A DNA stretch of 64,000 bases. Source: Limnanthes douglasii subsp. nivea (Eukaryota; Streptophyta; Magnoliopsida; Brassicales; Limnanthaceae). The first letter of the stretch is position 1, and every line of letters starts with the position of its first letter. The stretch lies in NCBI GenBank assembly GCA_036936605.1, contig JAUPFV010000004.1:143698973-143762972 (forward strand), written 5' to 3'. The notes beneath the pieces were generated by a model. That model was not told the DNA's origin, did no database searches, and saw only the letters and a list, made by a program, of their open reading frames with translations. Of the stretch, positions 17,449-36,895 are shown one piece after another. Both the position numbers and the translations under genes were made by a program.

Positions 17449-17457
17449 TTTTGAAAA
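17449..17457. repeat. 9-bp target-site duplication of MULE-1, left
   Basis: ttttgaaaa, repeated at 25643-25651. The sequence is its own reverse complement, so element ends were set where the two TIRs and the two duplications are both maximal (GGG start). Confidence 0.82.
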
Positions 17458-17540
17458 GGGTATGGCTATATATACCCAAAACGAGTTTAAGTATACCCAA
17501 TTTTGAGTATACCCAAAGGTGATCTAAGTATACCCAATTT
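17458..17540 (+). repeat. Left TIR of MULE-1 with subterminal repeats
   Basis: The first 40 bp match the right end perfectly in reverse complement. Within and just inside it the word 'agtatacccaa' recurs three times (near 17490, 17510, 17530). Similar 'gggtatac' words recur near the right end (25448, 25480, 25603). Repeated subterminal words are candidate transposase sites. Confidence 0.88.
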
Positions 17541-17564
17541 TTTCCAAAAATGCCCTTTTGTGGG

Positions 17565-17571
17565 TATATAA
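17565..17571 (+). promoter_or_regulatory. TATA box for the MULE-1 plant mobile domain gene
   Basis: TATATAA lies about 150 bp before the chosen ATG and just inside the left TIR region. A CT-rich leader typical of plant 5' UTRs (17583-17715) follows. Confidence 0.6.
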
Positions 17572-17718
17572 GCCATTTTTTTTACTAACTTCATCCACTC
17601 CACTTTCTCTCACTTCACTCATACCTCTCACTTCTCTCTAGAATTTCACCTCACTTATCTCTTTTTTTTTCCGGCGAACCACCACCACCACCACCACTCT
17701 TCCTCCTCCTCCTTCATT

Positions 17719-20414
17719 ATGGTCAAGAACAAAAACCCTCCGCCGCCTCCTACGTAAGTCCTCAAATTCATTTTGTTACTTAATTTTGTTAGATTTAGGT
17801 ATGAATTTTAGTTTTTAGGGTTGAATTTTGTGTTTAGAATAGAATTAGGTAGAGAATTAGGGTTTAGGGTAGGATTAGGATGAGTTTTTGGGCCATTTTC
17901 CAGCCAACTGGCCGGCTGGAAAATGGCCGGCGGCGCACCGGTGGTGCGCCTTGGGCAGCACCATCGGTGCGTGATGGTGTGCCGCTCGGTACACCAGCTG
18001 TGTACCGAGCGGCACACCATCTGTGTGCCGAGCGGCACACTAACCTGTGTCGCTCGGTACACAGTGCCGCAACCGAGCGGCACACGGCACCCGTGCCGCT
18101 CGGTTCGTCCTCTTTGGTACCTATGGTACTCCAATTTTTTTTAAAAAAAACTCTAATTTTTGGGTTTCTAAAGTTCTGGTTTGGTACTTTTTAAAAAAAC
18201 TTCAAATTTAACCATACGTATAGGAGTGTTGTTGATTTAAATTTTATATGTTAGTGTTATTAATTTCTTTCTTTGTTTTGTATTTTTGTAGGTCAGACGC
18301 AGTGGAGGAGCGACGTCTTCCACGATCCAGGGCGTACCCCCCTGGGTCACGTCCACCACCGCCAGGCAAGAGTATTAAGACTGCTCGCGCGGTTGAGGAT
18401 GAGCGGGTCCGCGATGCCAAGCGCGGACGAGATACTCCTGATGACTCTCAGACTATTCGTCTTCGGGAGGAGGAGGAACGGATACGGACTGATCGGTCTT
18501 TGCGCCGAATCAAGCATGGCCAGAGGAAGGAAAAGGCCATAGTTTCTGAGGCGATTGATATCAGATGTGGAGGGTCCTCACGACGAGAGACGTCGTCATC
18601 GCATACACATAGATCACCACCTCCCACTGCTAGTGATCCACCACCTCCCTCACCTTCTCGCAGAGGTGCGTCCCCTGCGCATACTATTACGCATCCACCA
18701 CCTGTTAGCGACAGGGTGGATGCCACTGGGGACCCTGAGCAGGACACGATTGACGAGGAGCACATAGATGCCATCCACGCCGAGGAGCAGCGAAAGACGT
18801 TTGCATTTCTGAAATGCAACAAGATCCCTCTATTTCCTGACTACAAGGAGCATGAGGCGTACCACGTCTTCATCGGACAGGTAAGTACCTAATTATTAAA
18901 CGTCTAATCTATGGTTTTGCTATTATTATGTTCTGACTTTGTTTTTAATTTATAGGGTCGCACTACACTGGGCGTACAGGCACATTATAATGTGCTACGT
19001 ATGTGGGACTTGACTGCTCAGCCAGATGTGCAGCGATTTTTGGCGCGGACTCCTTTTGGTCCTCTTATAGCCCACCTGCCTCAGTACTTCACACATTCCG
19101 TCTTAGACGAGGTTTTTGTTGAGCGTTGGCATCAGGAGACCAACACTTTCCATTTCTCATTTGGAGAGATGACGATTACGCTCGATGATGTCAGCTGCAT
19201 TACAGGTCTCCCTGTAGTTGGTCGGACACTTGATGTAGTCACGGCTCCACGTGACGAGGCATACAGCTACTACGCTAGTATGTTAGGTCTGACAGTGGAT
19301 GAGGTCCGCACAGAGATACAGTCCACCAGAGGCGTTGGCTTCAAGATAAAGTGGCTGAGGGAGACTTTCACCAGGGGGCGCTACATCGAGCAGACTGATG
19401 ATGAGACTATCCGCCAGGTATCACGAGCATACCTTATGTTCTTATTTGGTTGCACTATGTTTGCGGATACTAGTCAGAAGAGTGTGAAGGCTGACTACTT
19501 GTACGGGTTAGCCAATATGGACTCTGGGCTGTGGGATATAGCGTGGGGTACGAGTGCATTGGCATTCCTGTTCCGTGGTTTGGGTGATGCTTCGAAAGCA
19601 TCGAAACATAACCTTTATGGTTTTGTAGCTATGCTTGATTGTTGGATCTATGACCACTTCCCAGCGTTTAGTGCCTCAGAGAATGCTGACCACGTATCGA
19701 GGCAGCCTAGGATTGTGAAGTGGCTGCCGAAGCGGATTGTTGGGCAAAACATCCGCCCCAAATCGGTCATTCGTACTCTCCTTGCTGATCAGAAGGAGTC
19801 AGATGTAAGTTGGTAAATATTTGTTTTACATTACAATATTGATATTAAGTGTTAGGATTTTAATTCAATCTATTTTTTTTAATGTTTTGTAACAGGTGCT
19901 ATTTGAGCCATACGAGGACATTAGAGTCCAATTTCCAGTCCAGGAGATCCGCACTATTGTTTATCCTTTGCGGATGATGAGCACGGTCGAGGGCTACATG
20001 CCTGATCGGGTTATGCGCCAGTTCGGACGGGTTCAGGATGAGCCCCAACTCCCACTTGTACTACGACCTGGTTACAAGAAAGGAGATCTGGCCAGGTACA
20101 CGTGGCGGGAGAGCGCATGGCTAGATTGGCGTCGGCACTTGCTTGCTGAGGATCGTTTGACAGTTACCATTGCCACATATAGACAGTCAGCGACGAATAC
20201 CTACTGGAGGTACCTGGCTGACTATGGTTGGCATACTATCACTCCCCCACCGCGTACCACGGACGATAGACTTTTAGACGCCGTTCGCTCCATTGTTACT
20301 ATGCCTGTCGAGCGTGGGGAGGCGGGTGCGCTGAGGTGGAGAGATCAGGTCCTGCAGCTATTCTCTCCATGGTTGTTCGTCCTCATCATCGGACTTGTTC
20401 TAGCGTTGTTATGA
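17719..20414 (+). CDS. Plant mobile domain (MAIN/MAIL1-like) protein, MULE-1, four exons
   Basis: Predicted exons 17719-17753, 18292-18880, 18956-19804 and 19896-20414, all with GT-AG borders and compatible phases, give 663 aa with no stop. The first 200 residues are charged and Pro/Arg-rich, probably disordered. The plant mobile domain follows: RFLARTPFGPL, then NTFHFSFGEMTITLDDV and ITGLPVVG around residues 270-300, AYLMFLFGCTMF and LDCWIYDHFPAF. In Arabidopsis the host homologues MAIN and MAIL1 act in the nucleus in silencing and genome stability, and related domains are known inside plant transposons. What the element gains is unknown. It reads inward from the left TIR, and its first intron holds a palindrome array. 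Possibly intact. Confidence 0.86.
17937..18127. repeat. Palindrome array A1 of MULE-1 (9 cores, 22-24 bp period)
   Basis: Nine 9-bp quasi-palindromic cores of the form ACC-N3-GGT or close (accggtggt, accatcggt, accgagcgg, its reverse complement ccgctcggt, acctatggt) start at 17937, 17960, 17982, 18004, 18027, 18050, 18072, 18096 and 18119. Linkers of 13-15 bp are also self-complementary in part (gtacac/gtgtac, gtgtgcc/ggcacac). The array lies entirely in intron 1 of the plant mobile domain gene. An extra hairpin (ccagccaactggccggctgg) precedes it at about 17900. Confidence 0.85.
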
Positions 20415-20787
20415 TCTTTCATTCATGTGGACTTCTTAGTTGTTTCATTATCTTGTTTTGTATTATGACTTATGACATCTACTTTGTAATACGACTTATG
20501 ACTTCTACTATCTACGGCTTTCTACCTTCGTTCTTATTGAGTTTTTGTACTTAACTTGATCTAACATAAGTCATACCATAACTTGAAAACACCATAACAA
20601 TATACTAGTAATTCGACATTTTTTGTACTTCACTTCATATTAAATTCGTCAAAAACTAAAATTATTATAGTAATTAATTCACTTAAAATCCATAACAGCA
20701 AAACAGAATAACATTCGGATATAAACTTGTCAAAAAAACCCCACAACACCGAAAACATATTTTTTTAAAAAATACAAGTTAAATTGC
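20415..20787. other. 3' flank of the MULE-1 plant mobile domain gene
   Basis: AT-rich, presumably 3' UTR and terminator. No distinct motif or frame. Confidence 0.5.
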
Positions 20788-21139
20788 ACCATGGGTACGC
20801 AGTCAGTGGTACCTATGGTGCACACTACTGCGTACCCATGGTACTGTAGCCCGTGCACCATGGGTACACAGGAGGGAGTACCGATGGTACATGGTACCAT
20901 CGGTACACATTGTGGTGTACCGGCGGTACACTAGACTGTGTACCGATGGTACCATGCACCGGTCGGCACGTTACGTACCGACCGGTGCATGGGACCATCG
21001 GTACACAGTCTAGTGTGTCGATGGTGCACTACACTGTGTACCGATGGTGCACGCAGTTTGCACCATCGGTACACAGTGTGGTGTACCATCGGTACACCAG
21101 ACTGTGCACCATAGGTACACAGAAGACAGTACCTATGGT
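20788..21139. repeat. Palindrome array of MULE-1, central (17 cores, mostly 23 bp period)
   Basis: Seventeen cores of ACC-N3-GGT type (accatgggt, acctatggt, acccatggt, accgatggt, accatcggt, accggcggt, accataggt and near variants) start at 20788, 20811, 20834, 20857, 20880, 20896, 20919, 20942, 20958, 20977, 20994, 21017, 21040, 21062, 21085, 21108 and 21131. Eleven of sixteen intervals are exactly 23 bp; the rest are 22, 19, 17 and two of 16. Linkers are rich in acac/gtgt, and the array folds on itself many ways. It ends about 95 bp before the TATA box of the SANT-like gene. Confidence 0.9.
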
Positions 21140-21234
21140 GCGCAATTTTGTCTTGGATTTTTTTTCCCGGTTTTTTTTCCCGCGTTTTCTTTTTTCCCGC
21201 TCTAGATTTCCCGCCAATGTAAACTCTCATTCTT

Positions 21235-21242
21235 CTATATAA
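21235..21242 (+). promoter_or_regulatory. TATA box for the MULE-1 SANT-like gene
   Basis: 'ctatataaga' lies about 70 bp before the ATG at 21308 and just downstream of the central palindrome array. The array occupies the usual position of upstream promoter elements. Confidence 0.6.
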
Positions 21243-21307
21243 GAAAGCATACCTTACAACACCAAACACACAAAACTCTCATTTTAACATAGTTGAAGTC
21301 CATCTTA

Positions 21308-21697
21308 ATGGGTTGGAGTGTGTTTGATGATGCTCATCTGCTCAAGGCTGCGAAAGCTGTGAAGTTCAAACGGCCGGACGATAATACCGATGAGTTCTTC
21401 GATGAAGTTTTGTGTATGATGTATTTCATGTACGGCGAAATGTCTACATCAAGACAAATGCCTCGATCCCGTACTCGTCAAGAGGTAGCCACTAGGTACA
21501 AGGCTATAACTGGTGGACCGGTGTTCTTGGTGTTTAACGAGCCCCCAGAAGTTAGGAATGAAGCGTTCGACTCCTTTGGTCTAATGATCACAGACTATAT
21601 GTCGTTCGAAATGGCATAATACGTTCATTCTCAAATTGCCATGAAGGAGGAAACAGTGCGTATTCTCAGCGACAATGGAGGCTATGATTTCGACTAA
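21308..21697 (+). pseudogene. SANT/Myb-like small protein of MULE-1, one premature stop
   Basis: The frame opens MGWSVFDDAHLLKAAKAV, followed by EFFDEVLCMMYFMYGEM and RTRQEVATRYKAI. This fits the helix pattern of Myb/SANT-like DNA-binding domains (W..ED..LL.A ... FF..VL..MY..YG ... R..VK.RY). The frame meets TAA at 21617. The same frame then continues QIAMKEE...NGGYDFD and stops at 21697, and the MULE-2 homologue at 30327 ends GYDFD at the matching point. So this stop is a nonsense change in a gene of about 129 codons. The product may be a nuclear DNA-binding protein. The palindrome array lies just upstream. The family call rests on motif pattern only. Confidence 0.72.
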
Positions 21698-21972
21698 CTG
21701 TCTGTTATATATCAATTTATGTACTAATGTTTAGAATATGTTGTTCTTGCTTGTTTGTGATGTTTTATTTTAGTTATGAAATGATTATTGGCTTATCGTT
21801 ATTAGTCGGTACACAGAATGAATAAATGCAATAATAGAGAAAATACCAAACGAACCAAAACGATGTAGTAAAACAAAGTTCTAAACAACATAAATCCTCA
21901 CAAATGACGTAAAGCGACCAAGAGACACAGAAGAGTTTGAAACAATAAACCCGAACGAAACACATACACCTA
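21698..21972. other. Convergent 3' region between the SANT-like and transposase-OTU genes
   Basis: Untranslated tails of two convergent genes. No repeat or motif stands out. Confidence 0.45.
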
Positions 21973-24900
21973 CTAAACAAACTCGTCAAGATTAGTTACT
22001 TCTGGGAATGAACTAACTGGCTTTCTACCTTCGAGTTCCGTATATTTCTGGCAGCGACCAACTAATGGTAGCTCCCAATGCGTAGCCTCTTCGCTCTTCA
22101 ACTTCTGCCACGTAGGATGTATGCGTGCGCAAGGGCAAAGGGGCTTGATTGATAATTGTTTCATAGGTACTTAAATTAGAATCAACAATTGAGTTATATA
22201 GTGGTGAGGAAAAACATAACCATATATCGAATGACTTACATTGACAAAGTGGTTAGTATCGACGAATCCAAACCCAATCTCACGTCTTTGGGCCATAATG
22301 GGAGGCTTACCGCGCAGAGGTAAAAAAGTATGACTACAGTTGTGATTCCCTACGAGTGACACAAAATGAACAATGCATTCGAACTTGGTTGCAATCGCAA
22401 TACCCATCTCAGGCATTGTCATCCAATATTTGGGTGATGCTGGTGTCTCGTAGTAGTTTATACTTTCTGCAACCTTCAGGTAATCCTCTTTACCGTTATA
22501 AATCTTGCTGTATGTGTCGTAGTTTTCCATTAGCTCATCGTATATTGCCTTCCGAACACCTCGCCATCCTTCTTCATGACCATACAACCCGAATGAAACT
22601 GCTATGTATCCACAATGTCCATCTGGCTTAACATCATTAATACCGGATATAAAAGGGTTGAAGTGAATCGGAAACCAACGCAAAAAACCTTTCGGGTCAT
22701 GTACTAGTTCTGTGACTCGATCAATGGACGGTTGTACGATGTTGCTACCTAGGGAGGCAATGGAAGAGGTACGAGTACGAGTACGAGGTACTCTAGGCAC
22801 ATCTTTCCGAATCGTTGATTCACTACCAACTGCTTTACTCTTTTTAACTTTTGTTGGTTTTAAAGACTGCATGACTGCGTCATGACTAGCTTCATCCTCT
22901 TTCAGCGGGTACTCCCATCCGCTCATGTCCCGTTTAGTGGATGATGTATCAACCACTAACTTTCTTTTCACCTGTGGGCGGCCTCAGTGTTTCTGCTTCT
23001 CCAATGGCTCTAGCAATGACGATGTTTCAGGGTAAACAACTTCAAACCATTTCTTGTAAATATGTTTGATACGGCTTTCATCTTTCGTATCCATGACATC
23101 GTTAACTAGCTTTAGCAGATCATCTTTGAGAATTTCCATGGTCGTACGGAAAGTACGAGGCATTATTTCTAACCTTGTCCAGTGGACGTGAAAAGCACCT
23201 AGAGAGGCAGACATTCCACCTTCACGCCACTTGCGGACCTGGTGATAGCAAGGTATACCATGGGTAGATTTTACAGCGCATATACACTCGCCAGTGTCTT
23301 TAACATCCGGCCCATCTTCAATAGCGACCATCTTGGTATCTTCGGCCTTCTCTACTTCCTCGAAAAATAGTTCTAAAGCCACGTGGGAAACCTGGCCTCG
23401 AATCTCATCAAACAGTTTATCCGAGAACTTATGCAGTGCTATGTAAAGACTTTTCTCGAACGACGCCCTGATGGCAGCATGTTGGATTTCAACAAGCGAA
23501 TGAACCCTGCCCCAAAATAACTCGAAGTTTAATTTGCTCGTACGTATGTAACGCTTTAGGTTAGAATGAGCACTCTCAACGCGGTTTGTTGTGCAATGTC
23601 CCAAATGCATGTTTTTGTTCGTCTTCCAAACAACAAATTTGTCCATGTACTTATCGAGCCACGATTTTTCAGTGTATTCAATTGCTTTAGGGTAAGCTTT
23701 GTACTTCAATAGCATCTCCCGTCTGGCGTCATCGAATTCAATCTCTGATTTACTATACGCAATCTTCTGCCAAGCACTAACAAATTCTTTATGATCACTT
23801 TTCTCGCGGAAGTGCTCTCTTGTTTGCCCTAGAACATTTTGTTTAACGTGCCAGCGACATAACATATGCGTTGTCTTTGGGAATACCACTCCTATAGCAT
23901 TCATCAATGCTAAATCTCTGTCGGTTAGGATAACCCGCGGTTCTTCAATTCCATGAACGGAAATCAACGATTTCAAACACTCTAATACCCATTTGAAGTT
24001 GTTTAACTTCTCACCCGACATGAAGGCAAATGCCGCGCAGAAAGTCAATCCAGTACACGTCACACCGACTATCTCGAAAAATGGCATACCATATCGTATC
24101 ACTTTATATGTACTATCCATAATCAAAACTATAGGAAATGTGCGCAAAAGGTCAACACTGACAGGATGGACAAAAAACAAATCTGTAATGATTTGTCCAT
24201 CGTCTTCACCAGATTTATGCCATTCATAATAATTGTGTGACTTAAGCTCACCCCACAAGAACTGAAGTTGTGACCTACCCGCCTTCTTTAGAACCCGATT
24301 TTTTTGTCGTGCATTGTAGATCGTCCGCATGGTAGAAACATTATCTTCGTTCAATTTCTTCACACCATTCAGTATATCTCTGGGGTTAGTACCAATGAAG
24401 GTCGCTCGTTCAACATACTCCATCTCTTCATCATTCAAACGGCCAGCAAAAGAATGACCATCTAGATGTATAGAAGTGTCATGGTTATGAGTACCACATT
24501 TTACTTCTAACTTCCATTGATCTGGGGCAACCATTGACCCGAGAAGCTCAAATGGGCAGCCAATCTTTTTCGTTCCTGTAGACTTCCGTTTGCGGTCTTT
24601 TTCTGCAACCCTTGGAATATATTCCCCCCCCCCTCTCACACTGGAAATAAACTCTCGGGTTTTTTCTGCTGTTTACTTTGTCGCGCCGACTTATGTTGAT
24701 AACCATACCATAAAGTTTTCCGATCTTCGTAACCCATTTCACCAACGCGTCATGTGTGTAGAACTCGGTAGTGAAGAACAAATGACTATAATCGGTAGCG
24801 GAAGGTGCATCAGTCCCACTTGCGACATCCGTCCCCTGTTACACAACAAAAAGGCACAATAAACATTCAAGTATAGTTAACAACATAAAAAAATCAAGCT

Positions 24901-25325
24901 TTTTTTCGAAAAAAATGCGCGAATCCAAGGTTCTGAGGCCTAAAACCGTTGGTTCTAGGCCTCAGAACCGGCCGGACAAGGCCATCAGCACCACCGGTGC
25001 TGAGGCCATGAACCGGTGGTGCTGGGGCCTCAGAACCGAGCGGACTGAGGCCCCAGGTCCACCGGTTCTTGGCCTCAGCACCGGTGGTGCTGGGGCTGGG
25101 AACCAACCGGCTGCGTGGCCTAGCACCATCGGTTCCAGCACATGGAACCGATGGTGCTAGGCCAGCCGGGTTATTCAATACCTTCGCCGGCGACGGTGGT
25201 GGCGGTTCCGGCGACCATGGCTCCTTCTCCGGCGACTCAATCTCGTTTTCCGGCGAAAATTCATCATTCCTTCTCTCCAGCGACATCAACTCCTCCACGC
25301 TGATCCCTAATTCTGCTTCCGACAT
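21973..25325 (-). pseudogene. MULE-1 transposase with C-terminal OTU-type cysteine protease; two lesions
   Basis: Exon 1 (25325-25182) encodes an acidic leader. The second exon starts at 24835: FAR1-like zinc region (VYFQCERG...IGCPFEL...THNHD), then the MULE DDE core with VLIMDSTYK, VILTDRDLALMNAI and TNRVESAHSNLK, then a SWIM finger CICAVKSTHGIPCYH. A one-base slip in a C10 run (24624-24633) breaks the frame early. At 22984 a TGA ends the transposase. The same frame goes straight on into an OTU domain (PDGHCGYIAVSFGL with catalytic Cys, YWMTMPEMGIAIA, NHFVN with catalytic His), and MULE-2 has no stop at that place. A GTAAGT after NHFVN and a likely last exon 22143-21973 complete it. The transposase cuts and joins element ends; the OTU role is unknown. 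Confidence 0.85.
24945..25155. repeat. Palindrome array B1 of MULE-1 (10 cores, 22-23 bp period)
   Basis: Cores start at 24945, 24967, 24990, 25012, 25035, 25058, 25080, 25102, 25125 and 25147 (accgttggt, accggccgg, accaccggt, accggtggt, accgagcgg, tccaccggt, accaaccgg, accatcggt, accgatggt). Intervals are all 22 or 23 bp. Linkers centre on 'ggcc' with gctgagg/cctcagc arms. The array fills intron 1 (25181-24836) of the transposase gene, mirroring array A1 at the other end. Confidence 0.88.
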
Positions 25326-25441
25326 GATCGATTTTGCGTTTTAGTTTGAATGTTCTTGATTTTCTTAAGAAGTTTGAATTAGATTTCAAAATTTTTAAGA
25401 AACTATACTATTTGGATAGTAAATTCAGCAAAGAAGAGTGT

Positions 25442-25642
25442 TTGTTTGGGTATACATAGCAAAATAGGACTTTTGGTGAATTGGGTATACTCAGGATAAA
25501 CTTAGTAGTTTTTTTTTACTTAATGGCAGTTTTGATATTAATTTTCTGATGGAGGGTAAAAATGTCAAAAAAAAGTCAATCCAAAGTCAACTGTTGTTTT
25601 TTGGTATACTTAAACTCGTTTTGGGTATATATAGCCATACCC
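25442..25642 (-). repeat. Right TIR of MULE-1 with subterminal repeats
   Basis: The outer 40 bp (25603-25642) are a perfect inverted match to the left end. Inside, 'gggtatacatag' and 'ttgggtatactc' echo the left subterminal words in inverted orientation. Confidence 0.86.
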
Positions 25643-25651
25643 TTTTGAAAA
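25643..25651. repeat. 9-bp target-site duplication of MULE-1, right
   Basis: ttttgaaaa, identical to 17449-17457. Confidence 0.82.
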
Positions 25652-26236: not shown

Positions 26237-26245
26237 AATATATAA
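26237..26245. repeat. 9-bp target-site duplication of MULE-2, left
   Basis: aatatataa, identical to 36887-36895. Confidence 0.9.
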
Positions 26246-26330
26246 GGGCTAGGCTAAAATGAGACTCCAAATCTTTATAGTGAGACCCGGTTATAGTGAG
26301 ACCCGGGTTGGTTATAGTGAGACCCCAATT
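26246..26330 (+). repeat. Left TIR of MULE-2 with three 'ttatagtgagacc' repeats
   Basis: The outer 40 bp match the right end with one mismatch. 'ttatagtgagacc' occurs near 26275, 26293 and 26313, the last two outside the strict TIR. These are candidate protein-binding repeats. Confidence 0.88.
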
Positions 26331-26350
26331 ATTTACCAAAATGCCATCGA

Positions 26351-26358
26351 TATAAATA
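26351..26358 (+). promoter_or_regulatory. TATA box for the MULE-2 plant mobile domain gene
   Basis: TATAAATA just inside the left TIR, upstream of an untranslated first exon ending at a GTATGG donor (26478). Confidence 0.6.
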
Positions 26359-26719
26359 GCTAAGATTCAGATTTTCTTCCATTTCTTCTCCCCCGAAACC
26401 CTAACTCTCTCTACTTGAAAAAACCCAAATTTTTTCCATCGACTTTTCTTCAAATCCAACTCCACAAACTTGTTAAGGTATGGATTCTACACTTCATGGT
26501 GCTTTTTTTCCCATTTTACATTGTTATTTCTAGTGATTTTTAGTGTTTTCCATTCGGGTAGAAAAATTCGATTTTTATGTATTTGGTGTTGATTTGTTTG
26601 ATTTTAAGGGCATGTATGTTGTTAGTTAGGAGACTAGGATAGTTTAGGGTGTTGGGTTATAGTTTTAGGGTCGAATTCGAGCACAGATCTGGGTATGGGG
26701 GGCTGCATTTTCGAACAGG

Positions 26720-26843
26720 TATTTCCACGCACGAACATGCGTGGAAATACCGAATCCACACAATGTGGATTCTGTGCAGAAATTCGCAATTTTCTGCGTG
26801 GATTTTCCAAATCCACTCATTAAATTGCGAATTTTCGCAATTT
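26720..26843. repeat. Palindrome array A2 of MULE-2 (5 units)
   Basis: Five inverted repeats centred near 26734, 26762, 26786, 26807 and 26832: tttccacgca/tgcgtggaaa, gaatccac/gtggattc, gcagaaa/tttctgc, gtggatt/aatccac, aaattgcga/tcgcaattt. They lie in the leader intron (26478-26905) of the plant mobile domain gene, the same relative place as array A1 in MULE-1. The ttccacgcatg word recurs in the array at the right end (36431-36456). Confidence 0.78.
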
Positions 26844-26906
26844 CAAGATTTAATTGTTTTTTTGTAGTTTCAACTATTCTAATTGTTTGGTTTTGTCTTT
26901 TGCAGT

Positions 26907-29280
26907 ATGCCTCCTCGCCCACGTCCTCCAGTTACCGCTAGAGACTACGACACGGACCATGAGACTGAGGAGGCCGATCGCGGTGAGACTTCTCGGAGTG
27001 TCCGGGTCCGTAAGAGAGGGACCTTACAGGTAGTTCAGCGCCCACCTGTGCAGCGTCGCCTATCTGCGGAGCAGCGCTTCCGTGGATACAATGGTCACGT
27101 TGTAGACCTATAGTCTACGTTTCATTCGTATAGAGAGCACGAGGCATACAGCGTCTTCAGAGGCGATGTAAGTTTTATAGTTTTAATTTACTTTTTAAAG
27201 TTATTATTATTATTATTGGTTTGTGTTAGAAATTTTATTAGTTTAGGTTAGAATCAATTTATATGTTACTGTATTGGATTTTATATTGGTTTAGTTTAGG
27301 TTAGGTTAGAGTTCTTTTATATGTTAGAATGACTTTAGGTTTTAATTTTTAACACTCTCGATTGAATATTACCTGCATTGGATTTGGTATTGGATTTCGA
27401 TTTGGTATTGGGTTTGTGTTATAAATGTACTGAATTTATATGTTAAGAATTTATATGTTACTGAAATTAGGTTTGTGTTATAAAGTTTATTAGTTTAGGT
27501 TAAAATGAGTTTATATGATATGACGAGTTTAGGTTTTAATATTTAAGACTCACTACTGCATTGTATTTGTTGGTTATTGGTTATTGTTTTATCTTAGTTG
27601 TTATACTTTATATATATTGAACATGTTGGTTATTGGATTATCTTAAGTTTTAGATTGCATATATGTTTATATATATTGTATGTTTTTAATGCATGCAGGC
27701 CCGACAGACACTGCGCTGTTATGCGATGTACCACACACACAGTAGCTGGGACTTGAAATCCCGGCAGGAGAAGGTACTCGCAGAGGTTAGGAGCACCTGT
27801 TTCTGGCCCTTGGTCGAGGCCTTGGGTAAGTGGTCAACTAACATCCACTTGATTGAGGGCTTCCTTGAGAGATGGCATCCCGAGACGAACACTTTCCACT
27901 TCTCGTTCGGGGAGATGACCGTCACCCTGGATGACGTCCACATGATAACAGGGCTCTCAGTTGTCGGTCACAGCTGTGAGATATATGAGTACCCCTCTGC
28001 TAATGAGCGTACTGCGAGATACGCTCGCTTACTTGGGTGCAGCCCTGCGGAGCTTGAGGAGGAGATAAAGGAGAACAAGGGCGGCGGTAAGAGGCATGTG
28101 CGCCTTGCATGGCTGAAGAGGAGATTCTGCACCCATCAGTATTATGATGAGGAGATCACTGATGTCGATGCTAAGAGAGCTACGAGGGGCTATTTGTTGC
28201 ACTTCTTCGGCTGTACCATTTTTGCCAACAAGTCGGGCAACAACATTAGCCTCGACTACTTGCAGTTCATCGACGATTACACCAGCTCCGTGAGGTATAA
28301 CTGGGGGCAGATGATACTGGCGCAGCTCTACTACCAGCTAGGCAGAGGTTGCCTACACTCTACTTCGGGTATATCGGGTTTTTTGGCCCTGTTAGAGACG
28401 TGGATTTACGACCATTTCTCGGCGTTTGCAGTTCATCAGTACCCGAGGTATAGTAGCTCACGCCCTACTATATGCCTTCATGCGCCTGCTAAGTTTCGAC
28501 AGAGCCAGGAGACTCGAGAGGGTATTAGAGTTTGTCTGGATAGCTTCACCGAGCAGGATGTAAGTTGTAATCAGTTTCATTTCAATTATCGTATATATAA
28601 TTTTAGTTAATAATGATAAATGGTATATGAATATTTTACAGGTATCATTCACGCCGTATACGACCATGCGGACTGCTCGAGGTAGCCCTGATATAGCCTG
28701 GATAGATGCGACGCTGAAGGCGGCGGACATTGTCGAGGCGTACTATCCGCTGCGGGTGGCTAGACAGTTTGGTCACGTTCAGCAGGTAATATTTTGTAAC
28801 TCTAAATATTAATATTGTTTGTATTGCGCATGTGTGGTACATAGTTTAGCCTTATTGTTTCAAATACAGGTTCCTGGTCCATTGCGTCCTCTTCTCACCG
28901 GTTCTACTAGGCATCGTCGTGCGAACACCCTCTACCTATGGGATGCATTCAGTTGGGATAACTGGGAGTCACACTGTATTCACGAGAGTCTGAGGGGTGC
29001 GACGTATGTTCCTGGTCAGGAGGATGGTACCACTGTGGTCTACTCCTCGTGGGTTACGAGGAACTTATGGTACATCATATCTGATCCAGAGGCTGACAGA
29101 GATGATGTTGAGATTGGGGTGAACCCTACACCACACACACATGCGACCACACTGCATGAGCTGACTTCGCGCATATTGGAGATGGAGGAGTACGACCGTA
29201 GACACCCCGGCGTTACTTTTGATAGCTTCCGGGATCCTTTGGATGAGATATACCGCATATCTCACGAGTACAGAGACTGA
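26907..29280 (+). pseudogene. Plant mobile domain (MAIN/MAIL1-like) protein, MULE-2, one premature stop
   Basis: Exons 26907-27167, 27699-28559, 28642-28785 and 28870-29280 join in frame by GT-AG borders to about 557 residues. A TAG at 27111 interrupts exon 1 shortly before YREHEAYSVFRGD, the counterpart of YKEHEAYHVFIGQ in MULE-1. Domain motifs: NTFHFSFGEMTVTLDDV, ITGLSVVG, GYLLHFFGCTIFAN, LETWIYDHFSAF, YYPLRVARQFGHVQ, TLYLWDAFSWDNWESHC. The exon plan matches MULE-1 except for an extra intron late in the gene. Residue similarity to MULE-1 is clear but far from identical, so the two genes are old relatives. Role as for MULE-1, unknown. Confidence 0.82.
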
Positions 29281-29655
29281 TTATCATTTATGTTTTTTTT
29301 TGACAGTTTTAGAATTTATATGTGATGTTTATTTTTGACCGGATTATTTTTTGCGATGTGCTACTTGTTCGATCTTTAATTATGTGTTTTGTTAATTTGT
29401 TACTTTTTTTTATATAACTTTCGAATGTTTGTTCAAACTCTATCTTTGAAACTCCAAGTTTAGGGTTACGTATCTGAATGTAAAACAAATGCAACATAAA
29501 CTGAAACATAAACCCAAAGGTTTTTTAAACACCAACAACAACACAAACTCGAACATAAACCGAAGCAGACACGTAAACATAAACTCAAACGAAAATATCA
29601 AAGATAACGTAAACCCATTGTAAAACATAGACTCCATATGGATTTCGCATTCTTG
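29281..29655. other. Convergent 3' region between PMD gene and first SANT gene of MULE-2
   Basis: AT-rich untranslated sequence. No motif recognised. Confidence 0.45.
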
Positions 29656-30027
29656 TTAGTCACGCATCTCGTCTAGGCGAATGTCAATAATGACACCGCG
29701 GACCGAATCCAGCTGATCCTCTGTTAAAAAATCCGTGGGTTGACAGTTGAACCGGTCACACGCAACACGACGTTCCAATTCGGTGAGGCTAGAAACTGGA
29801 TGTTGACGGAATGTCACTAAGCTAGACCACCTAGCTTTCACCTCATCGACACGTCTAGAAATTTTTGGCGGCTGAACACCATCCCTTCCATACAGAAAGT
29901 ACATCTTGCATAGCAATGCCCACCAGTGCTTATTACCCCCCTCCATCATGTTAAGGTTACCAACTTCAGCAGCTGCCATCATCAGATATTGATCTTCCAA
30001 CTCAGTCCATGGGCACATATTTTGCAA
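29656..30027 (-). CDS. SANT/Myb-like small protein 1 of MULE-2
   Basis: Open frame of 123 codons. It starts MQNMCPWTELEDQYLMMAAA, then HWWALLCKMYFLYGRDGV and RRVDEVKARWSSLV, the clearest Myb/SANT-like pattern of the set: W-x3-ED first helix, W/F-x2-L second helix, VKARW third helix. The C-terminal half (CQPTDFLTEDQLDSVRG) is unlike the other three. It is divergent from the gene at 30327, and the two share a 299-bp promoter region containing a 53-bp TIR-like module. Probable DNA-binding protein; family by pattern only. Confidence 0.72.
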   Translation of the reverse strand: MQNMCPWTELEDQYLMMAAAEVGNLNMMEGGNKHWWALLCKMYFLYGRDGVQPPKISRRVDEVKARWSSLVTFRQHPVSSLTELERRVACDRFNCQPTDFLTEDQLDSVRGVIIDIRLDEMRD

Positions 30028-30163
30028 TTGTTATATTTGCTATAATTGTTACTGCCTATAAAACGTCTTTTTGAACATTGTATCAATTATATACACTTGT
30101 AAGATAAGGATAGCGTAATCCATGTTGACGAATGATTGTGCGACACCTAAGACTTTTAAGATA

Positions 30164-30216
30164 GGGGTCTCATTATAGCGTAAGTTCCATTATTAGACGT
30201 ATCGCTATAACGAGAC
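30164..30216. promoter_or_regulatory. 53-bp TIR-like module, copy a
   Basis: Begins ggggtctcattatagcg and ends cgctataacgagac, with arms inverted around a 22-bp spacer containing 'attattagacgt'. Its first 18 bases match the right TIR end (ggggtctcattttagcc) almost exactly. It lies between the divergent SANT genes, 137 bp from one ATG and 111 bp from the other. Confidence 0.75.
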
Positions 30217-30326
30217 ACGTGAACATATTGCCGCAAAAAACACACGCATTTACTGCATTTCCCGCCCAAACATCCACTAGCTTATAAGCGTATGCTTATC
30301 ACTCGTCAAACATAAACAGTGCAAAA

Positions 30327-30701
30327 ATGGAGTTTACCCCTCATGAGGACTACCATTTGCTTCAGGCAGTGAAACTTGCCGTGCGTGAGTTGGGCGAAGA
30401 CAGTAGCGATGCGTTTTTCGAGCTAGTCTTGTGTAACATGTACTACAACTACGGCCGATTAGGAACTGAAGGTTTTGCTGTGCGTAACCGTGAACAAATC
30501 AAACAGAGGTACATTAATTGCAAACCAATGGATCGTTTGCTTTTCCAACCATTTAAAATTCAGCAAGAAGCGGCCGCCGTATGGAACATGACTGTGGTAG
30601 ATTACATCACTAGTGACATGGTTCTGTATCTTGAGAAAAGGATTGCTGAAAGGGAAGAGGGGACTGACTCTGACGATAACTTGGGATATGACTTCGACTA
30701 A
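30327..30701 (+). CDS. SANT/Myb-like small protein 2 of MULE-2
   Basis: Open frame of 124 codons: MEFTPHEDYHLLQAVKLAV, DAFFELVLCNMYYNYGRLG, NREQIKQRYINCKP, WNMTVVDYITSDMV, ending in an acidic tail ...NLGYDFD. It is the closest full-length relative of the MULE-1 gene at 21308 (same terminal GYDFD), and a paralogue of the gene at 31937 (MEFTADEDYHMLQAV). A TATA-like 'cttataag' lies about 45 bp upstream, and a 53-bp module is 111 bp upstream. Probable DNA-binding protein. Confidence 0.75.
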   Translation: MEFTPHEDYHLLQAVKLAVRELGEDSSDAFFELVLCNMYYNYGRLGTEGFAVRNREQIKQRYINCKPMDRLLFQPFKIQQEAAAVWNMTVVDYITSDMVLYLEKRIAEREEGTDSDDNLGYDFD

Positions 30702-30941
30702 TCGGCATTACTTATGTTTTTATTTGTTTGCTTATTGGAGTTTATGTACTGTTTGTTTAAGTTAATGTTCGAATGTTTTTTATTTTACATTTAGCATGTA
30801 CTACTGGTTCTTATTTGACTGCCCATTTTACTTTGTTTTCATTTTTTTGTATCCACTGTATCCAGACTATCCAATGTGGCATTCTTAAAACAACCGAAGG
30901 CAACTTTTAAAAAAGTACACAAATGCAGGAGTGCAGTAATA

Positions 30942-30994
30942 GGGGTTTCATTATTAAGAAACTAAAATTATTAGACGTCTCGATACAACGAGAC
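30942..30994. promoter_or_regulatory. 53-bp TIR-like module, copy b
   Basis: Same length and order as copy a (ggggtttcattatta ... acaacgagac), with a decayed first arm. The following ~60 bp (atattgccgc.aaaaacac.cgc) also match the sequence after copy a, so the whole promoter segment was duplicated. It lies 186 bp before the ATG at 31180. Confidence 0.72.
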
Positions 30995-31179
30995 TCATGA
31001 AAATATTGCCGCCAAAAACACCCGCGTTTAATGCACTTCCCGCCCATACTTTCCCGCTTGTTAATTAACGCGGGAACAAAAACCTCCTTTCCCGCTTATT
31101 TTTTTAGAACCGACACACCGACTTGGAGTCTATAAATACCATATTTTGACTATGAAACAAAATATCTTAAGCTACAACA

Positions 31180-31635
31180 ATGGGTGATTCAGAGTGGAGC
31201 GTGCACGAAGATGCAAGCCTCCTGGTCGCATTTGACTACGTCAGATGTACGATGCAAGAGGAGGTTCCTGGTTTCATCAATGTGGTTTTGTGCAGGATGT
31301 TCTTCAACCACGGTAGGGAGGCATCTTGTCCAGGATGCTCAATGCCCCGACCACGCGGAAGAGAAGAAGTGTTCGAGAGGCTGGCTTATCTTAAGCCAAG
31401 GACTGTACAGATTGAGTCATTGGATTACGAGACCCGTTTACATGTCCAACACGTATTCAACATGGGCTCCCACGGTCCAGTTACGCCGGAGATGGTGTCA
31501 CATGCGACGCAGCAAAGGGAGCAAGAAATGGCCGACGCAATTGCAAGCGCCGTTGAAACGTGTTCAACCCCCGAAGGAAGTTATGATTCCGATGATTATA
31601 AGGTCGGGAGCGGAATGAACTATCCGACTCCATAA
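31180..31635 (+). CDS. SANT/Myb-like small protein 3 of MULE-2
   Basis: Open frame of 151 codons: MGDSEWSVHEDASLLVAFDY, INVVLCRMFFNHGREA, then a short CPGCSMPRPRGREEV insert, RLAYLKPRTVQ and a long C-terminal tail with DSDD. TATAAATA (near 31131) and the initiation context are good. It shares the first-helix pattern with the others (W/F-x3-ED-x3-LL-x-A) but is the most divergent. Probable DNA-binding accessory protein. Confidence 0.72.
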   Translation: MGDSEWSVHEDASLLVAFDYVRCTMQEEVPGFINVVLCRMFFNHGREASCPGCSMPRPRGREEVFERLAYLKPRTVQIESLDYETRLHVQHVFNMGSHGPVTPEMVSHATQQREQEMADAIASAVETCSTPEGSYDSDDYKVGSGMNYPTP

Positions 31636-31936
31636 ATATAAGTGTGAGATGTTAACAGAGGCTTATTTGCTTATGTATTTCTTATTTTGCAATGCTTTGG
31701 ATTAAAATGTAATGTTTTTATGCAGTCGACGTATTTTAAAGTTTTAGTGCTATTGTTTACGAAATGAACATCGAAACATAATACATCGAATGTTTACATT
31801 CATTCGATCAAAATTTAAAACAGCAACTAATGAAATTACAAATACTGGATTGAAACATCACAAGTTAAAATAACAACAACTCACGAAATAACAAGTTCTA
31901 ACAAATACTGGAAAGAACCATCATCAAGTGGAATGA

Positions 31937-32305
31937 TTAATCGTAACGAAGTTTGTTTTCAACATCATCAATTCCACCCCTTGCAATAATCTTATCCTCC
32001 AGAAATGCTACCATATCCCTGGTGATGTAGTCTATTGTGCTCAGGTTCCAGACGGTAGCAGCTTCTTGTTTAATTAACGATGGCAAGAACAACAGATGCT
32101 GTATTGGCTGACAAAAAATATATCTGGCCTTGATCTGGTCACGAGTACGCACAACGATGCCTCTTGTACCCAAACGGCCGTAGCCCATGTACATCGTACA
32201 TAGGACACGCTCGAAAAACGCATCGCTGCTATCTTCCCCCAGTATCCGGCGGGCAATCTTCACAGCTTGAAGCATGTGGTAGTCTTCGTCCGCCGTAAAC
32301 TCCAT
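31937..32305 (-). CDS. SANT/Myb-like small protein 4 of MULE-2
   Basis: Open frame of 122 codons: MEFTADEDYHMLQAVKIAR, DAFFERVLCTMYMGYGRLG, RTRDQIKARYIFCQP, WNLSTIDYITRDMVAF, ending NKLRYD. Clear paralogue of protein 2 with inverted gene orientation. TATAAATA on the minus strand is about 80 bp upstream and a 53-bp module begins 123 bp upstream. Confidence 0.75.
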   Translation of the reverse strand: MEFTADEDYHMLQAVKIARRILGEDSSDAFFERVLCTMYMGYGRLGTRGIVVRTRDQIKARYIFCQPIQHLLFLPSLIKQEAATVWNLSTIDYITRDMVAFLEDKIIARGGIDDVENKLRYD

Positions 32306-32427
32306 AAGTAAACGTTAACGAGTTTTATTTATGTTGAATGCTCAGTGTTTGGCAAGTGTATTTTGATTTCGTGATTTTATGTCTTATTTATAGGGGACGA
32401 GTCAATTTTGGTGGGCGAGCAATAGTA

Positions 32428-32480
32428 GGGGTTTCATTATAGCCTAACTTCTATTATTAGGTGTCTCGCTATAACGAGAC
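32428..32480. promoter_or_regulatory. 53-bp TIR-like module, copy c
   Basis: ggggtttcattatagcct ... cgctataacgagac; same 53-bp length as copies a and b and the best preserved inverted arms. It is upstream of the minus-strand SANT gene 4. It is on the same DNA strand as a and b although the gene it precedes is reversed, as a palindromic site would allow. Confidence 0.75.
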
Positions 32481-32693
32481 CTCTAAAATATCTCCCCCAT
32501 TTATTTCTTGGCAGTATATGTTTGGCCGTACGTGATAACTTGATTCTATGTTTTTTTTTTGCACAAACCAATGTTCATCTTGTTGTTTTTTTGTTAAAAC
32601 TTATTCTCGTAATAGTAGTTTTAGTTTTTGGAATGATTAAACCTTACGGCTTCAGTTTATGTAGAATTTTTTTTTTTACATTTTTTAGTCCTT

Positions 32694-33130
32694 AATAGGT
32701 ACCCTTTGGCCATGATTTTTGGAGGAAGGCCAATTTTTTTTTTTTTTTTTGGATTTCCAACCTCAAATGTTGTTAAAACCATGTTTTGAAACCAATGGCG
32801 AGCATGAAAGTTCAAAAAAAAATTTAAAAATGCCCCAAAGCCCTTGTTTTACTTCTGGGCAGTGCCTTTTTTGGCACACGTTTTCGTGTGCATGTACATT
32901 TGCACGCGCCATTTCTCGTGCTTTTGTACATGCACACGAAAACGTGTGCCAAAAAAGGCACTGCCCAGAAATAAAAGAAGGGGTTTGGGGCATTTTTAAT
33001 TTTTTTTTTCGAACTTTCAGGCTCGCCAATGGTTTCAAAACATGGTTTCAACAACATTTGAGGTTGGAAATCCAAAAAAAAAAAAAAATTTGGCCTTCCT
33101 CCAAAATTAATGGCCAAAGGGTACCTATTG
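32694..33130. repeat. Long inverted repeat (hairpin) in MULE-2, arms about 215 bp
   Basis: From aggtaccctttggcc near 32697 to ggccaaagggtacct near 33125 the two halves are near-perfect reverse complements. Matching pairs include cctcaaatgttgtt/aacaacatttgagg, ttctgggcagtgcc/ggcactgcccagaa and cacacgttttcgtgtg on both arms. The loop is a few bases at about 32912. Differences are scattered point changes and T/A-run length. A transcript would fold into one long hairpin. It sits between the SANT genes and the 3' end of the transposase-OTU gene. Confidence 0.9.
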
Positions 33131-33327
33131 AGGCTCTGTTTTGGTAAAAAAAATCATACGGCCGTTTAAAAAACAATTTTTTTGCAATAACATCTACAAA
33201 GCACAAGTAAAAGTCAAAATTATTATCATGCAAAACAACACAAGTCTAGTAGTAGGAGGTGGCAAAATGTCTCTCCAAAGGATTAAAAAAAAATAAGTAA
33301 CACAAAATATTACAATACAACAAAGCA
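33131..33327. other. 3' flank of the MULE-2 transposase-OTU gene
   Basis: AT-rich sequence between the long hairpin and the stop codon. No further feature seen. Confidence 0.4.
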
Positions 33328-36300
33328 TTATGTATCCCCGGTCAAATCGTAGCATTCATGATCCCCATCGTTTAATGTCGGAGGTTGTGCTGGTTTAATT
33401 TGGTGATACTTGTTGAGACGTGCGCCTATTGGTATGGCCCAATTTGTAACTTCAGCGCAAGTGCGGAACGCAAACCACATTGGGTATATATCCGGCAACG
33501 GTCCGTCTAATACAATCTAAAAATTTCAATTATATAGAAACATTAAATACGTCGCGGATTATTTGATAAAATGAAATCTAACTATCAAGAATGTACTAGT
33601 TTACTTACTTTCACGAAATGATTACCGTGGACGAAACCAATGCCAACTTCGACAATAGGACATGATCTTGGAGGCACACCACACAAAGGAAGATACGTGT
33701 ATGGTAGTTGGAGAGAGACATGGTATACTATACATTGATACCGGGTGGCTATCACCAACCCATAGTCGGGTAATGTCATCCAGTGCCTAGTTCCGCTCTC
33801 GTACATTTTGAAACAATCCAATCTCCGCAATAGATTGTCAACACGTTCCGCACCGTCAAAAACCCTTTCCCAAAGATCACATTGACTTGAAAGTTCAAAC
33901 ATCAAATCCCTTCTCACTTCCTCCCATGCGTCCGCATTGCCTTTAATCGTCAAAGCTACCGCCCTAAATCCGCAATTACCGTCCGGAGCAACGTCTTCAA
34001 CGGTAGCCAAGTACTCGTGCAAGTACTCGGGAAAACAACTCCCGTAGGCGCTCAATCCTTTTCCTTTATTCGATTTTCTAGATCGAGTCGCTTTCTCTTT
34101 TTTCGGTGGTTGTGCTTTATCTTTGCATTTGCGTACTATAAATGCCTTAACCGCCGACGCGGCCGTGCTACCTATCGTGGCGGGAGTACTACTAGCGCCT
34201 ACACTAGGGTATTCAAACCCGGATGGGTTCCGCTTAGTTGACTTGTCGACACCGGCTTTTTTCCGACCCTTCGTGACAACCGGTTCCTTAGGTTCCAACA
34301 CATGGCTTGTAGCGGGATCTAGGATTTGCATCATCCTATTTATGATGTGATCTTGCACTTGTGGACCGTAACCGCGTATGGTACTATCAATTAAGGATAG
34401 CTTTCTCGTAAGCTCATCTTCGGTACCAACGTTTTCCCTAGGCTTGATCGCTAAAGTACTCCAATAAACATCACATTCACTCGTTTGAATCGACCGACCT
34501 TCTTTCGCGATCACATCACACTCACACGCGCAAGGCAAATTGTGTGTTGTCCTAATTACACAACCACACTTTGCGGGAGTGAACCACAAATCCCCGGCCT
34601 TTCTAATAGTTTCTTCTAATATTTGAATGACCGTACATGAAAGCTTACCTTTGATGTCGCGAAAGATAGCTCCCCTAGATGCTTGTCTAGGACGAAACAA
34701 ACTCCGTTCGAACGTTTCGAAGATGGTAGAGTGTTGAATGCGAAGCAACGCATGAACTTTATCCCAAAATTGCTCAAAAGTGCATAGGCTTGTGCCGATA
34801 GCCCGTTTTAGACTAGAGTGAGCACTCTCCGCCCTAAACCATAAACTTAGATTAGTTACAGGTCTAACAACTAGTTAAACATAGTAATGTAAATCAATGA
34901 TAATATAACTCACCGGTTGCTAGTGTGGTTCCCCAAATGTTTAATCTTGTTAGTGTAGACATTAAGGAATTTGTGTCCGTAAGGGTCTATCCATTGTTTC
35001 ATCAAGTACTCGAGAACCTTAGGACAAGATGCGTAGGCTTTGTGAAGGTCGGTAAGGTTTTTTTTATACTCTTCGATCGTCGCCGAATGTTGAACCGCGA
35101 CATAAAACTCTAAGAACTCCTCCCCCATGTCCGCTTTGGGCAACACTTTCTTAGAGTATGAGCAAATGTTCCTGTTTATATGCCAAGTGCATAACAAATG
35201 AGTTGCATCCGGGAATACCTCATCGATAGCGTTCATTAAAGCCAACTCCCTATCCGTGACGATAATATTTGGTAATGCGCACATGTTGGTCACCATCACT
35301 CTCCTTAGAACGCTCATTGCCCACGTGTAGTTCTCTTCTTTCTCCGAGCTCATAAAAACAAAAGCTATACAAAAGGTCTTTTTCGTCGAAGTTTGGCCAA
35401 CTATTTCTAGCAAAGGAAGTTTATACCTTGTAGTCTTGTACGTGCTATCCATTATAAGCACTCTAGGATTTCGTCGGTTTCTTTGTTCGTGCGCTCCCAA
35501 AAATAGTACTCGTGCTCCTTTAACTTACCAAACAAGTATTGCATTTGGGATTTGCCCGCTTTATCAACCAATTGGTGTTTGTGCCTCATGTTGTAGATGG
35601 TACGCATACTAGATACATTTTCCGGATCTCTTAACTTCAATCCACGGTATATATCTCTTGGCCGAGAACCGATTGTTGTGAGTTTGCGAACATACTCCTC
35701 CTCTTCCGCCTTTAACCTCGCAGCCCGTGAATGACCATCCAAATGCAAGAAGGGTTGGTGGTTGTGTTTTCCAATTATAACTACCAATTTCCAATAGCCG
35801 TTCTTCTAACACCGGATTGCCCCTAAGCATGAACGGACATCCGCATTTTTTGGATGAACAATCTCGTCGTTTCTTCACAATCCCCGGTTTAGGCCTCGGC
35901 TTGTAAACACCGTGCCTCTCGCACTTAAAATATAACCGCGGTGTTTTACCGTTTTTACTACCATCTTCATCTTTATCTACCACGACAATAAACCCTATAC
36001 TCTTGCTCTCTTTGTCAACCCATTCGATCAATTCCGCCTTCGTTAAGAATTTATCCGTCTTAAATATTTGACTATAATCCGCCATGTGACATGGTGCTTC
36101 GGCGGCATCCTACACAAACACAAACATGTATTTACAAGTCAAATAATAAAGACAAACCCCATATTCAACAAAAAAAGCATGTAAAACCAAGACAAACCCA
36201 ATATTGAACCAAAAAAACATGTAAAACTAAGAAGAACCCAAAATCTAACCCAAAAGGCATGCAAAACCAATTTTGTCAAATATTCGAATTTTTATGCAAA

Positions 36301-36622
36301 GATTTGGCCACATCTTCGCATGAACATGCGAAGATTTGGCAAAATCGCTGCATGACGATTTCGACAAATCTTCGCATGATTTTGCGAAGATTTGACAAAA
36401 TCTTCGCATGTTCATGCGAAGATTTGTCATCTTCCACGCATGTTCATGCGTGGAAGTGTACATTCGAAGGCACGAACTTGCGAATTTACGTACTGTGTTG
36501 AAAAAAAAATAGATTTTTACCTCGGCAACGCTCTCCAAGTGATCAGTAAGCGGCTCCTCCTCCTCCGAAAGGAAATCATCAGCGTTGCAGCTCCAATCGT
36601 CATTTAAGTCGCTTAAATCCAT
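33328..36622 (-). pseudogene. MULE-2 transposase-OTU fusion, disabled
   Basis: Exon 1 (36622-36521) encodes an acidic leader (MDLSDLNDDWSCNADDF). After a 411-bp intron, exon 2 begins at 36109 with YSQIFKTDKFLTKAELIEW, YFKCERHG and GCPFMLRG. A frameshift near 35800 and a deletion of roughly 20 codons near 35490 break the frame. The DDE core persists: VLIMDSTYK, VTDRELALMNAI and, across an intron (34913-34834), SNRAESAHSSLK. The SWIM-like site is CGCVIRTTHNLPCAC. From 34748 one open frame runs through transposase C-terminus and linker into an OTU domain (APDGNCGFRAVAL, HWMTLPDYGLVIA, GNHFVK), then GTAAGT and a last exon 33516-33328. This shows the two domains are one protein. Confidence 0.86.
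36278..36487. repeat. Palindrome array B2 of MULE-2 (7 units, mostly 28-32 bp period)
   Basis: Palindromes of 20-28 bp such as aatcttcgcatg/catgcgaagatt are centred near 36291, 36323, 36351, 36379, 36411, 36443 and 36474, giving intervals of 32, 28, 28, 32, 32 and 31 bp. The sixth unit uses ttccacgcatg/catgcgtggaa, as in array A2. They fill intron 1 (36520-36110) of the transposase gene, the same place as B1 in MULE-1. Confidence 0.87.
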
Positions 36623-36886: not shown

Positions 36887-36895
36887 AATATATAA
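36887..36895. repeat. 9-bp target-site duplication of MULE-2, right
   Basis: aatatataa, identical to 26237-26245. Confidence 0.9.

Follow-up and report, generated by a model that had tools for sequence, protein, structure and literature searches.

Palindromic site arrays private to families of plant-mobile-domain Mutator-like elements in Limnanthes douglasii, with a possible likeness to VANC recognition

The closest described system is that of the VANDAL elements of Arabidopsis, in which the VANC21 protein binds the motif YAGTATTAY in introns, intergenic regions and terminal noncoding regions (Hosaka 2017, PMC5735166). According to the motif passages of that paper, VANC itself and VANB carry the VANC21 motifs in their introns, VANA has them upstream, and the repeats that they build in tandem vary from copy to copy; VANC6 relies on different motifs, and the Fig. 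5 legend gives DUF1985 as a VANC domain. Half of the VANDAL group is given as “PMD and/or DUF” in Table 1 of PMC6446971, PMD being the plant mobile domain, and Ikeda et al. speculated, in the part of PMC5418596 concerned with captured PMDs in Mutator-like elements (MULEs), that these domains act in anti-silencing. Here we describe TE1 (17458..25642), an 8.2-kb MULE that codes for a PMD protein, a SANT-like protein and a transposase and carries three arrays of a short palindromic site. It lies in a 64,000-nucleotide stretch of Limnanthes douglasii subsp. nivea (assembly GCA_036936605.1, contig JAUPFV010000004.1, positions 143,698,973 to 143,762,972 of the forward strand), which we call the window and whose numbering is used throughout.

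Array B (20786..21141) lies in the intergenic region between the PMD gene and the SANT-like gene and is the array in which a sequence-only reading had counted 17 cores between 20788 and 21139. Our recount gives the same total, composed of 14 exact ACCNNNGGT sites and three degenerate ones, two with a 4-base centre (20958 and 20977) and a decayed site, GTCGATGGT, at 21017. The 23-bp spacing also agrees, with 11 of the 16 intervals being exactly 23 bp and the remainder 16, 16, 19, 17, and 22 bp. Comparison with shuffled sequence bears out the excess: the window holds 29 ACCNNNGGT sites against 8.8 expected (standard deviation, 3.1; maximum of 17 in 100 shuffles), 14 of which start in 20788-21131. 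Within TE1, 23 of the 25 sites are located in three noncoding regions, namely PMD intron 1 (3 sites), the PMD-SANT intergenic region (14) and transposase intron 1 (6), and the remaining 6,408 bp outside the array regions contain two.

Array A (17937..18127), inside the predicted PMD intron 1 (17754-18291), combines its three exact sites with palindromes with 4-base centres of the type GTRCCGAGCGGYAC. Array C (24929..25155), inside the predicted transposase intron 1, has its six exact sites about 22 bp apart where they are adjacent, and its linkers, of the GGCCTCAG type, differ from those of A and B. A dyad scan that used no preset motif, in which each array was searched separately for 3-base dyads against 200 shuffles, ranked ACC-N3 first in B (14; largest shuffle, 7) and in C (6; largest shuffle, 4). 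When the period was tested by site phases, none of 500 random sets did as well as array C. For A and B, 136 and 54 of the sets did as well, and the test told nothing there, the loose site calling having taken in linker palindromes.

The core of array B is a 13-bp quasi-palindrome with an orientation, GYACC-ATV-GGTAC, and the array as a whole follows the consensus GYACC-N3-GGTRC plus two N4 variants and one decayed site. Both orientations occur as had been claimed, with seven forward, seven reverse and one undecided among the 15 N3 sites. The central three bases had been taken as free; that part does not hold, since the centre is ATV or its complement in 14 of the 15 N3 sites, the decayed one counted. 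Once oriented, all 15 have G at position -2 and A and C at +9/+10, and the linker columns contain little information. Agreement between units over 105 pairs is 0.79 in the unselected core columns and 0.40 in the linkers, with 0.25 expected by chance. Of 19 further copies that were read, 16 have the spacing of an intact site at 21017, and judged by these copies the decay looks private to the window copy.

Searching the 1.78-Gb genome with the array region gave 906 candidates, of which 40 were scored, and the TE1 family has at least 40 copies. That the family copies should have the array is borne out in 39 of the 40, the window included, in which array B could be read; the remaining one, L023, is without one flank. 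The 39 lengths form a 23-bp ladder of 286/287 bp (9 copies), 309 (2), 332 (2), 353/355 (25), and 378 (1), and the spacing between exact cores across copies is 23 bp in 390 of 503 intervals. Arrays A and C also vary between copies (19 and 20 copies, respectively). Array C is enlarged to 322-323 bp in L009, L011, L012, L021, and L028, and by eye, the added stretch in L012 is itself a long palindrome.

Among 20 copies fetched whole, the diverged copies L020 and L024, which have the full array length, were used to compare core arms with linkers, with 22 shifted core/linker masks as a control. In array B, L024 differs from the window copy at 9 of 169 core-arm positions and 24 of 131 linker positions (P = 6e-4; none of the 22 shifted masks does as well), and L020 at 6 of 169 and 19 of 131 (P = 1e-3; 2 of 22), so that the linkers diverge 3.4 and 4 times as much as the core arms. 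Array A shows the same direction, with 2/50 against 19/36 in L024 and 0/74 against 6/54 in L020. The sister-copy comparison suggested with the sequence-only reading thus comes out for A and B and falls short of significance in C; in the young copies pooled, array C does show a contrast (core arms 3/540, linkers 33/1242). In the PMD exons of L024, 84 of 459 synonymous and 48 of 1479 nonsynonymous positions differ, placing the array B linkers at about the synonymous rate and the core arms well below it. The corresponding counts for its transposase are 27/324 and 71/1232, and stops (three in the PMD gene, one in the transposase) indicate that L024 is a decayed copy. As far as sequence comparison goes, there are signs that the array core is under selection. 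The proposal that these are selected protein sites in a MULE gains support, the core arms of array B being kept while the linkers diverge between units, and we reject a plain tandem repeat as a full account since divergence in A and B is greater in the linkers than in the cores.

A second PMD-MULE family, TE2 (26239..36894), follows in the window, with a 48-bp terminal inverted repeat (TIR; 94%), PMD and MULE domains, and a gene set of PMD, four SANT-like genes and a transposase. Its palindromes occupy comparable places. The predicted PMD leader intron contains eight of them (26718..26845; TTCCACGCA..TGCGTGGAA and others; shuffle mean 3.1, maximum 5), and the predicted transposase intron 1 contains 15 (shuffle mean 5.0, maximum 11), with an array of a 32-bp unit (ATGCGAAGATTTG..) at 36299..36456. 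At eight loci, including the window, the latter array measures 180 bp in three and 212 bp in five, a difference of one 32-bp unit. We had guessed that TE1 and TE2 share the N3 geometry, and this was dropped for lack of support in the TE2 dyad counts. A conserved segment with TIR-like GTCTC/GAGAC motifs stands 5' of three of the four SANT-like genes of TE2 (30161-30271, 30939-31049, and 32426-32480), and a long imperfect inverted repeat, seen by eye at 32716-33153, is perhaps a nested foldback element.

A PMD search with the Erythranthe protein P0004 as the query gave 14,678 candidates, of which 88 were scored, and 2 kb upstream was taken at 15 places chosen for variety before any sequence was seen. 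Counted per 300 bp, palindromes exceed all 20 shuffles in 9 of the 15 pieces; in one of these nine, L070, the cluster takes in palindromes that are located in PMD exon 2 in TE1. Two further families emerged, X (L057, L058, and L068), with TTTGGGCCTG-cgac-GAGGCCCAAA in 35-bp steps, and Y (L061-L063), with the palindrome TACGCCA..TGGCGTA. Stretches of 11 kb from one member of each show a PMD gene, SANT-like genes, a transposase and an OTU-like part in the same general layout. In X and Y, the internal array has the SANT hits on one side and the 3' end of the transposase on the other; in TE1, it is flanked by PMD and SANT. The X and Y cores had been chosen from the pieces upstream of PMD, and they recurred in the internal region and upstream of the transposase once these were fetched. 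Counts of the X 7-mer GGGCCTG/CAGGCCC in X come to 15, distributed over the PMD 5' region (3), the internal region (8) and the transposase 5' region (4), with none elsewhere. The Y 6-mer ACGCCA/TGGCGT has 21 occurrences in Y, of which 9, 7, and 3 fall in the corresponding regions and 2 outside them. The TE2 cores number 19 in TE2, the two introns containing 5 and 9 and the rest of the element 5. Compared with 50 shuffles, every one of the four cores surpasses the maximum in the family to which it belongs and stays inside the shuffle range in the remaining families. On this sequence evidence, we consider the family-specific site system of the PMD-MULEs to be real.

Which of the encoded proteins might read the arrays can be approached by comparing families. 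Between TE2 and X, two SANT proteins are 68% and 76% identical, the PMD is 52% identical, the transposase core is 52% identical, and the array cores are unlike. The SANT-like proteins are alike and the cores nevertheless differ, which disfavours SANT as the specificity factor and favours PMD or transposase. We prefer PMD over transposase because PMD proteins match DUF1985, a domain of VANC: 8 of 26 do so at E ≤ 0.1, the best at 1.5e-6 (profile positions 25-138 of 141), which is below the Pfam cut-off. TE2 PMD gives a weak match (E 0.006). DUF7745 is matched by 6 of the 26 PMD proteins (best, 9e-7). The matches of PMD proteins to these two domains, noted with protein P0013 and with window 27690-28562, suggest one superfamily.

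The reading we favour, to which we assign about an even chance, is that the three TE1 arrays with their common core are binding sites of the element's PMD protein and keep its control regions unsilenced, the binding being our interpretation. A protein would bind the palindromic cores, and this binder would be the element's own PMD protein and not the SANT-like protein or the transposase. By analogy with VANC in VANDAL elements, PMD binding may counter host silencing in the noncoding control regions of the family. The protein and the array of each family would change together, and one family would then presumably not activate another. A wider proposal, which we offer tentatively as a possibility, is that this is a second, widespread VANC-like system, in which the PMD of each family reads its own array and lifts the silencing of its own family only, PMD and DUF1985 deriving from one ancestral anti-silencing protein, so that the host proteins MAIN and MAIL would be its relatives. 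Family-private palindromic arrays beside PMD genes offer a direct DNA target for testing the role of PMD in MULEs. If the reading is true, sequence-specific anti-silencing would be a strategy of other plant MULEs too, beyond Arabidopsis VANDAL, and one genome would contain several protein-site pairs that differ in specificity, with a possible link to MAIN and MAIL1. A literature search on palindromic or internal MULE repeats, on MULEs with SANT and on DUF1985/VANC with palindromes, with subscription papers mostly outside its coverage, had no report of such arrays among the matches listed, and no paper pairing PMD with DUF1985.

Several results weigh against the PMD reading. On the protein side, the PMD exon of TE1 itself gives no DUF1985 match, the PMD structure model is of low confidence (pLDDT 41), and the TE2-X transposase divergence (52% identity) equals that of PMD. 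In the dyad scan of array A, CCG-N2 (5) ranks first and the ACC-N3 count (3) stays below that of the largest shuffle (4). In TE2, N3-centred dyads are not enriched (z 0.0), the commonest 5-base dyad is barely above shuffles (4 versus 3), and the regions upstream of the SANT genes have no palindrome excess. Six of the 15 upstream pieces are not above shuffles in palindrome density, and among the pieces alignable to TE1 (L060, L064, L065, L066, and L070), the array is found only in L060 and L066. The conservation contrast has its own weak points. Array C gives no significant contrast in L024 (3/40 versus 17/100, P = 0.19, 13 of 22 shifts as good) or in L020 (1/60 versus 6/138, P = 0.68, 9 of 22 shifts), and L020 and L024 have linker changes in common and therefore common ancestry. 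Counted as events, the array B contrast is modest (7 in 169 versus 12 in 131 in L024; 4 versus 9 in L020), and the young copies pooled show none in B (13/1690 versus 14/1330) or A (2/320 versus 5/344).

The SANT-like protein, which the sequence-only reading had proposed as the binder, could bind the arrays and regulate the three genes of the element. Array B does lie upstream of the SANT gene, where a promoter element had been predicted, but the same core is present in predicted intron 1 of both the PMD gene and the transposase gene, and the 68% and 76% identity of the TE2 and X SANT proteins sits poorly with their different cores; we consider this binder possible, not favoured, and on balance unlikely. 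The transposase might instead bind the arrays as internal sites, whether for regulation of the element or to aid assembly of the synaptic complex. The transposase stays a candidate because it has diverged between TE2 and X as much as PMD has, 52% identity of the cores leaving room for a change of specificity, and TIR-like GTCTC/GAGAC palindromes occur upstream of the TE2 SANT genes. However, the TE1 core is absent from the TIRs (no site in 17458-17936 or 25156-25642) and the arrays occupy introns and an intergenic region, not the element ends, which makes this account improbable in our view.

Growth of tandem repeats by slippage, without selection, would explain why units are gained and lost in whole periods, why some linkers appear, by eye, to be related by duplication, and why young copies lack a core-linker contrast in B. 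It does not readily account for array B linkers diverging 3.4 times (L024) and 4 times (L020) as much as the core arms, for one core common to three arrays with partly unrelated linkers, or for palindromes at comparable places in four families, and we give it little credence. We also considered that the palindromes form RNA hairpins or DNA cruciforms, for example, in making or avoiding small RNAs. Palindromes in A, B, and the two TE2 introns do outnumber those of every one of 100 shuffles, C equals the largest shuffle, and two arrays are within predicted introns. A poor hairpin is expected from 5-bp arms with a 3-base loop, and in array B, the pair -1/+9 is C.A in 8, G.A in 1, and T.A in 6 of the 15 sites; the C.A and G.A pairs mean that arm complementarity is not kept there, so a structural role seems very improbable. 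Binding by a host transcription factor would suit the array positions at a promoter and in intron 1, where plant enhancers usually lie, but a core that differs in each family is hard to reconcile with one shared host factor, and we find this account highly implausible.

TE1 is recognized as a MULE by its 43-bp TIRs (left, 17458..17500, + strand; right, 25600..25642, - strand) and its 9-bp target site duplication (TSD; class range, 8-11 bp), TTTTGAAAA, present on the left at 17449..17457 and on the right at 25643..25651. The left TIR is an inverted match to 25642-25600, with 96% over 52 bp when the TSD is counted in. The PMD gene (17719..20414, + strand) has a splice model with predicted exons 17719-17753, 18292-18880, 18956-19804, and 19896-20414, is open for 663 amino acids in the window copy, and matches the Pfam PMD family in the exon 3 frame (E 2.9e-44; 152.1 bits versus a cut-off of 34.9). 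A PMD scan of viral contigs gave no match. The MULE transposase gene (22984..25325, - strand; predicted exon 1 25325-25182, intron 1 25181-24836, exon 2 from 24835) matches the MULE family (Pfam ID PF10551; E 4.8e-26; 91.5 bits versus a cut-off of 27.6), and in the window copy, it has a frame shift within 24548-24672, a stretch including a run of ten C. The OTU-like part (22171..22983, - strand; Pfam OTU E 0.0044, under the cut-off) was seen among the open reading frames, and in the window copy an in-frame stop divides it from the frame of the transposase.

The SANT-like gene (21308..21619, + strand) encodes 103 amino acids and is preceded by TATATAA (21236..21242, + strand), by eye a possible TATA box. 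The TE1 SANT-like protein has no match to the Pfam Myb/SANT families, and of its four TE2 paralogues, two give hits at E 0.064 and 0.16, under the cut-off. No homologue was found in the protein database (one candidate, none with E ≤ 0.001); in the Foldseek list, Zeste stands at rank 38, and TRF1 and TRF2 are not among the best 50 matches listed.

Other repeats surround the two elements. Open reading frames at 14246-16609, 5' of TE1, resemble by eye a LINE reverse transcriptase with RNase H, and 9904-10195 is a tandem repeat of a 26-bp unit in 11 copies that are about 81% alike. A further short element, at 37084-37355, is bounded by inverted ends (79%); its internal palindromes are GC-rich and built around CCGGCGG, and it contains ACCGGCGGT at 37236. 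The direct repeats 39325-40000 and 45737-46411 are 98.7% identical and 6.4 kb apart from start to start, perhaps the long terminal repeats of a young retrotransposon, and 48580-48916 and 53032-53368 are 99.4% identical direct repeats, each with a perfect 45-bp tandem duplication.

Other element-encoded site systems are also known. The subterminal repeats of the En/Spm (CACTA) elements consist of many short direct and inverted sites that are bound by the element-encoded TNPA; these TNPA sites are subterminal and required for transposition. The TE1 arrays differ in lying in introns and an intergenic region. The host proteins MAIN and MAIL1 with the DOWN motif resemble our case in that PMD proteins are linked with gene regulation and silencing and a promoter motif is enriched at dependent genes, but they are encoded by host genes, and the MORC1 promoter motif CATGCAGTTT is unlike the TE1 core; direct binding of the motif is likewise not shown in the relevant sections of PMC7156037 and PMC9899485. 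The PMD-bearing Repbase MULE groups (Dupeyron 2019, PMC6446971, Table 1) share with TE1 a MULE transposase and a PMD gene, on the opposite strand in several, and many have a 9-bp TSD; the passages of that paper on PMD-MULEs mention no palindromic arrays, OTU part, or SANT-like gene.

The sequence-only reading knew of no described MULE feature like array B, a statement that has to be withdrawn in view of the VANC arrays of VANDAL21 and VANDAL6 in Arabidopsis, which are close in layout and evolution (PMC5735166). Differences remain. In the passages describing them, the VANDAL21 motifs have one orientation and are not termed palindromic, whereas array B is quasi-palindromic with seven sites each way; VANC has DUF1985 and DUF287, whereas the accessory proteins here are PMD and SANT-like; and binding and demethylation have been demonstrated for VANDAL, while our arrays are known from their sequence. 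The likenesses are a short motif that is dense in noncoding regions, in introns and upstream of genes (PMC5735166; PMC10398659, Sasaki 2023), tandem units that are gained and lost, as in the 23-bp ladder of the 39 copies and the 32-bp step of TE2, related families with different motifs, and an accessory protein encoded by the element. By this analogy, VANC-like self-recognition is our best reading of the site system.
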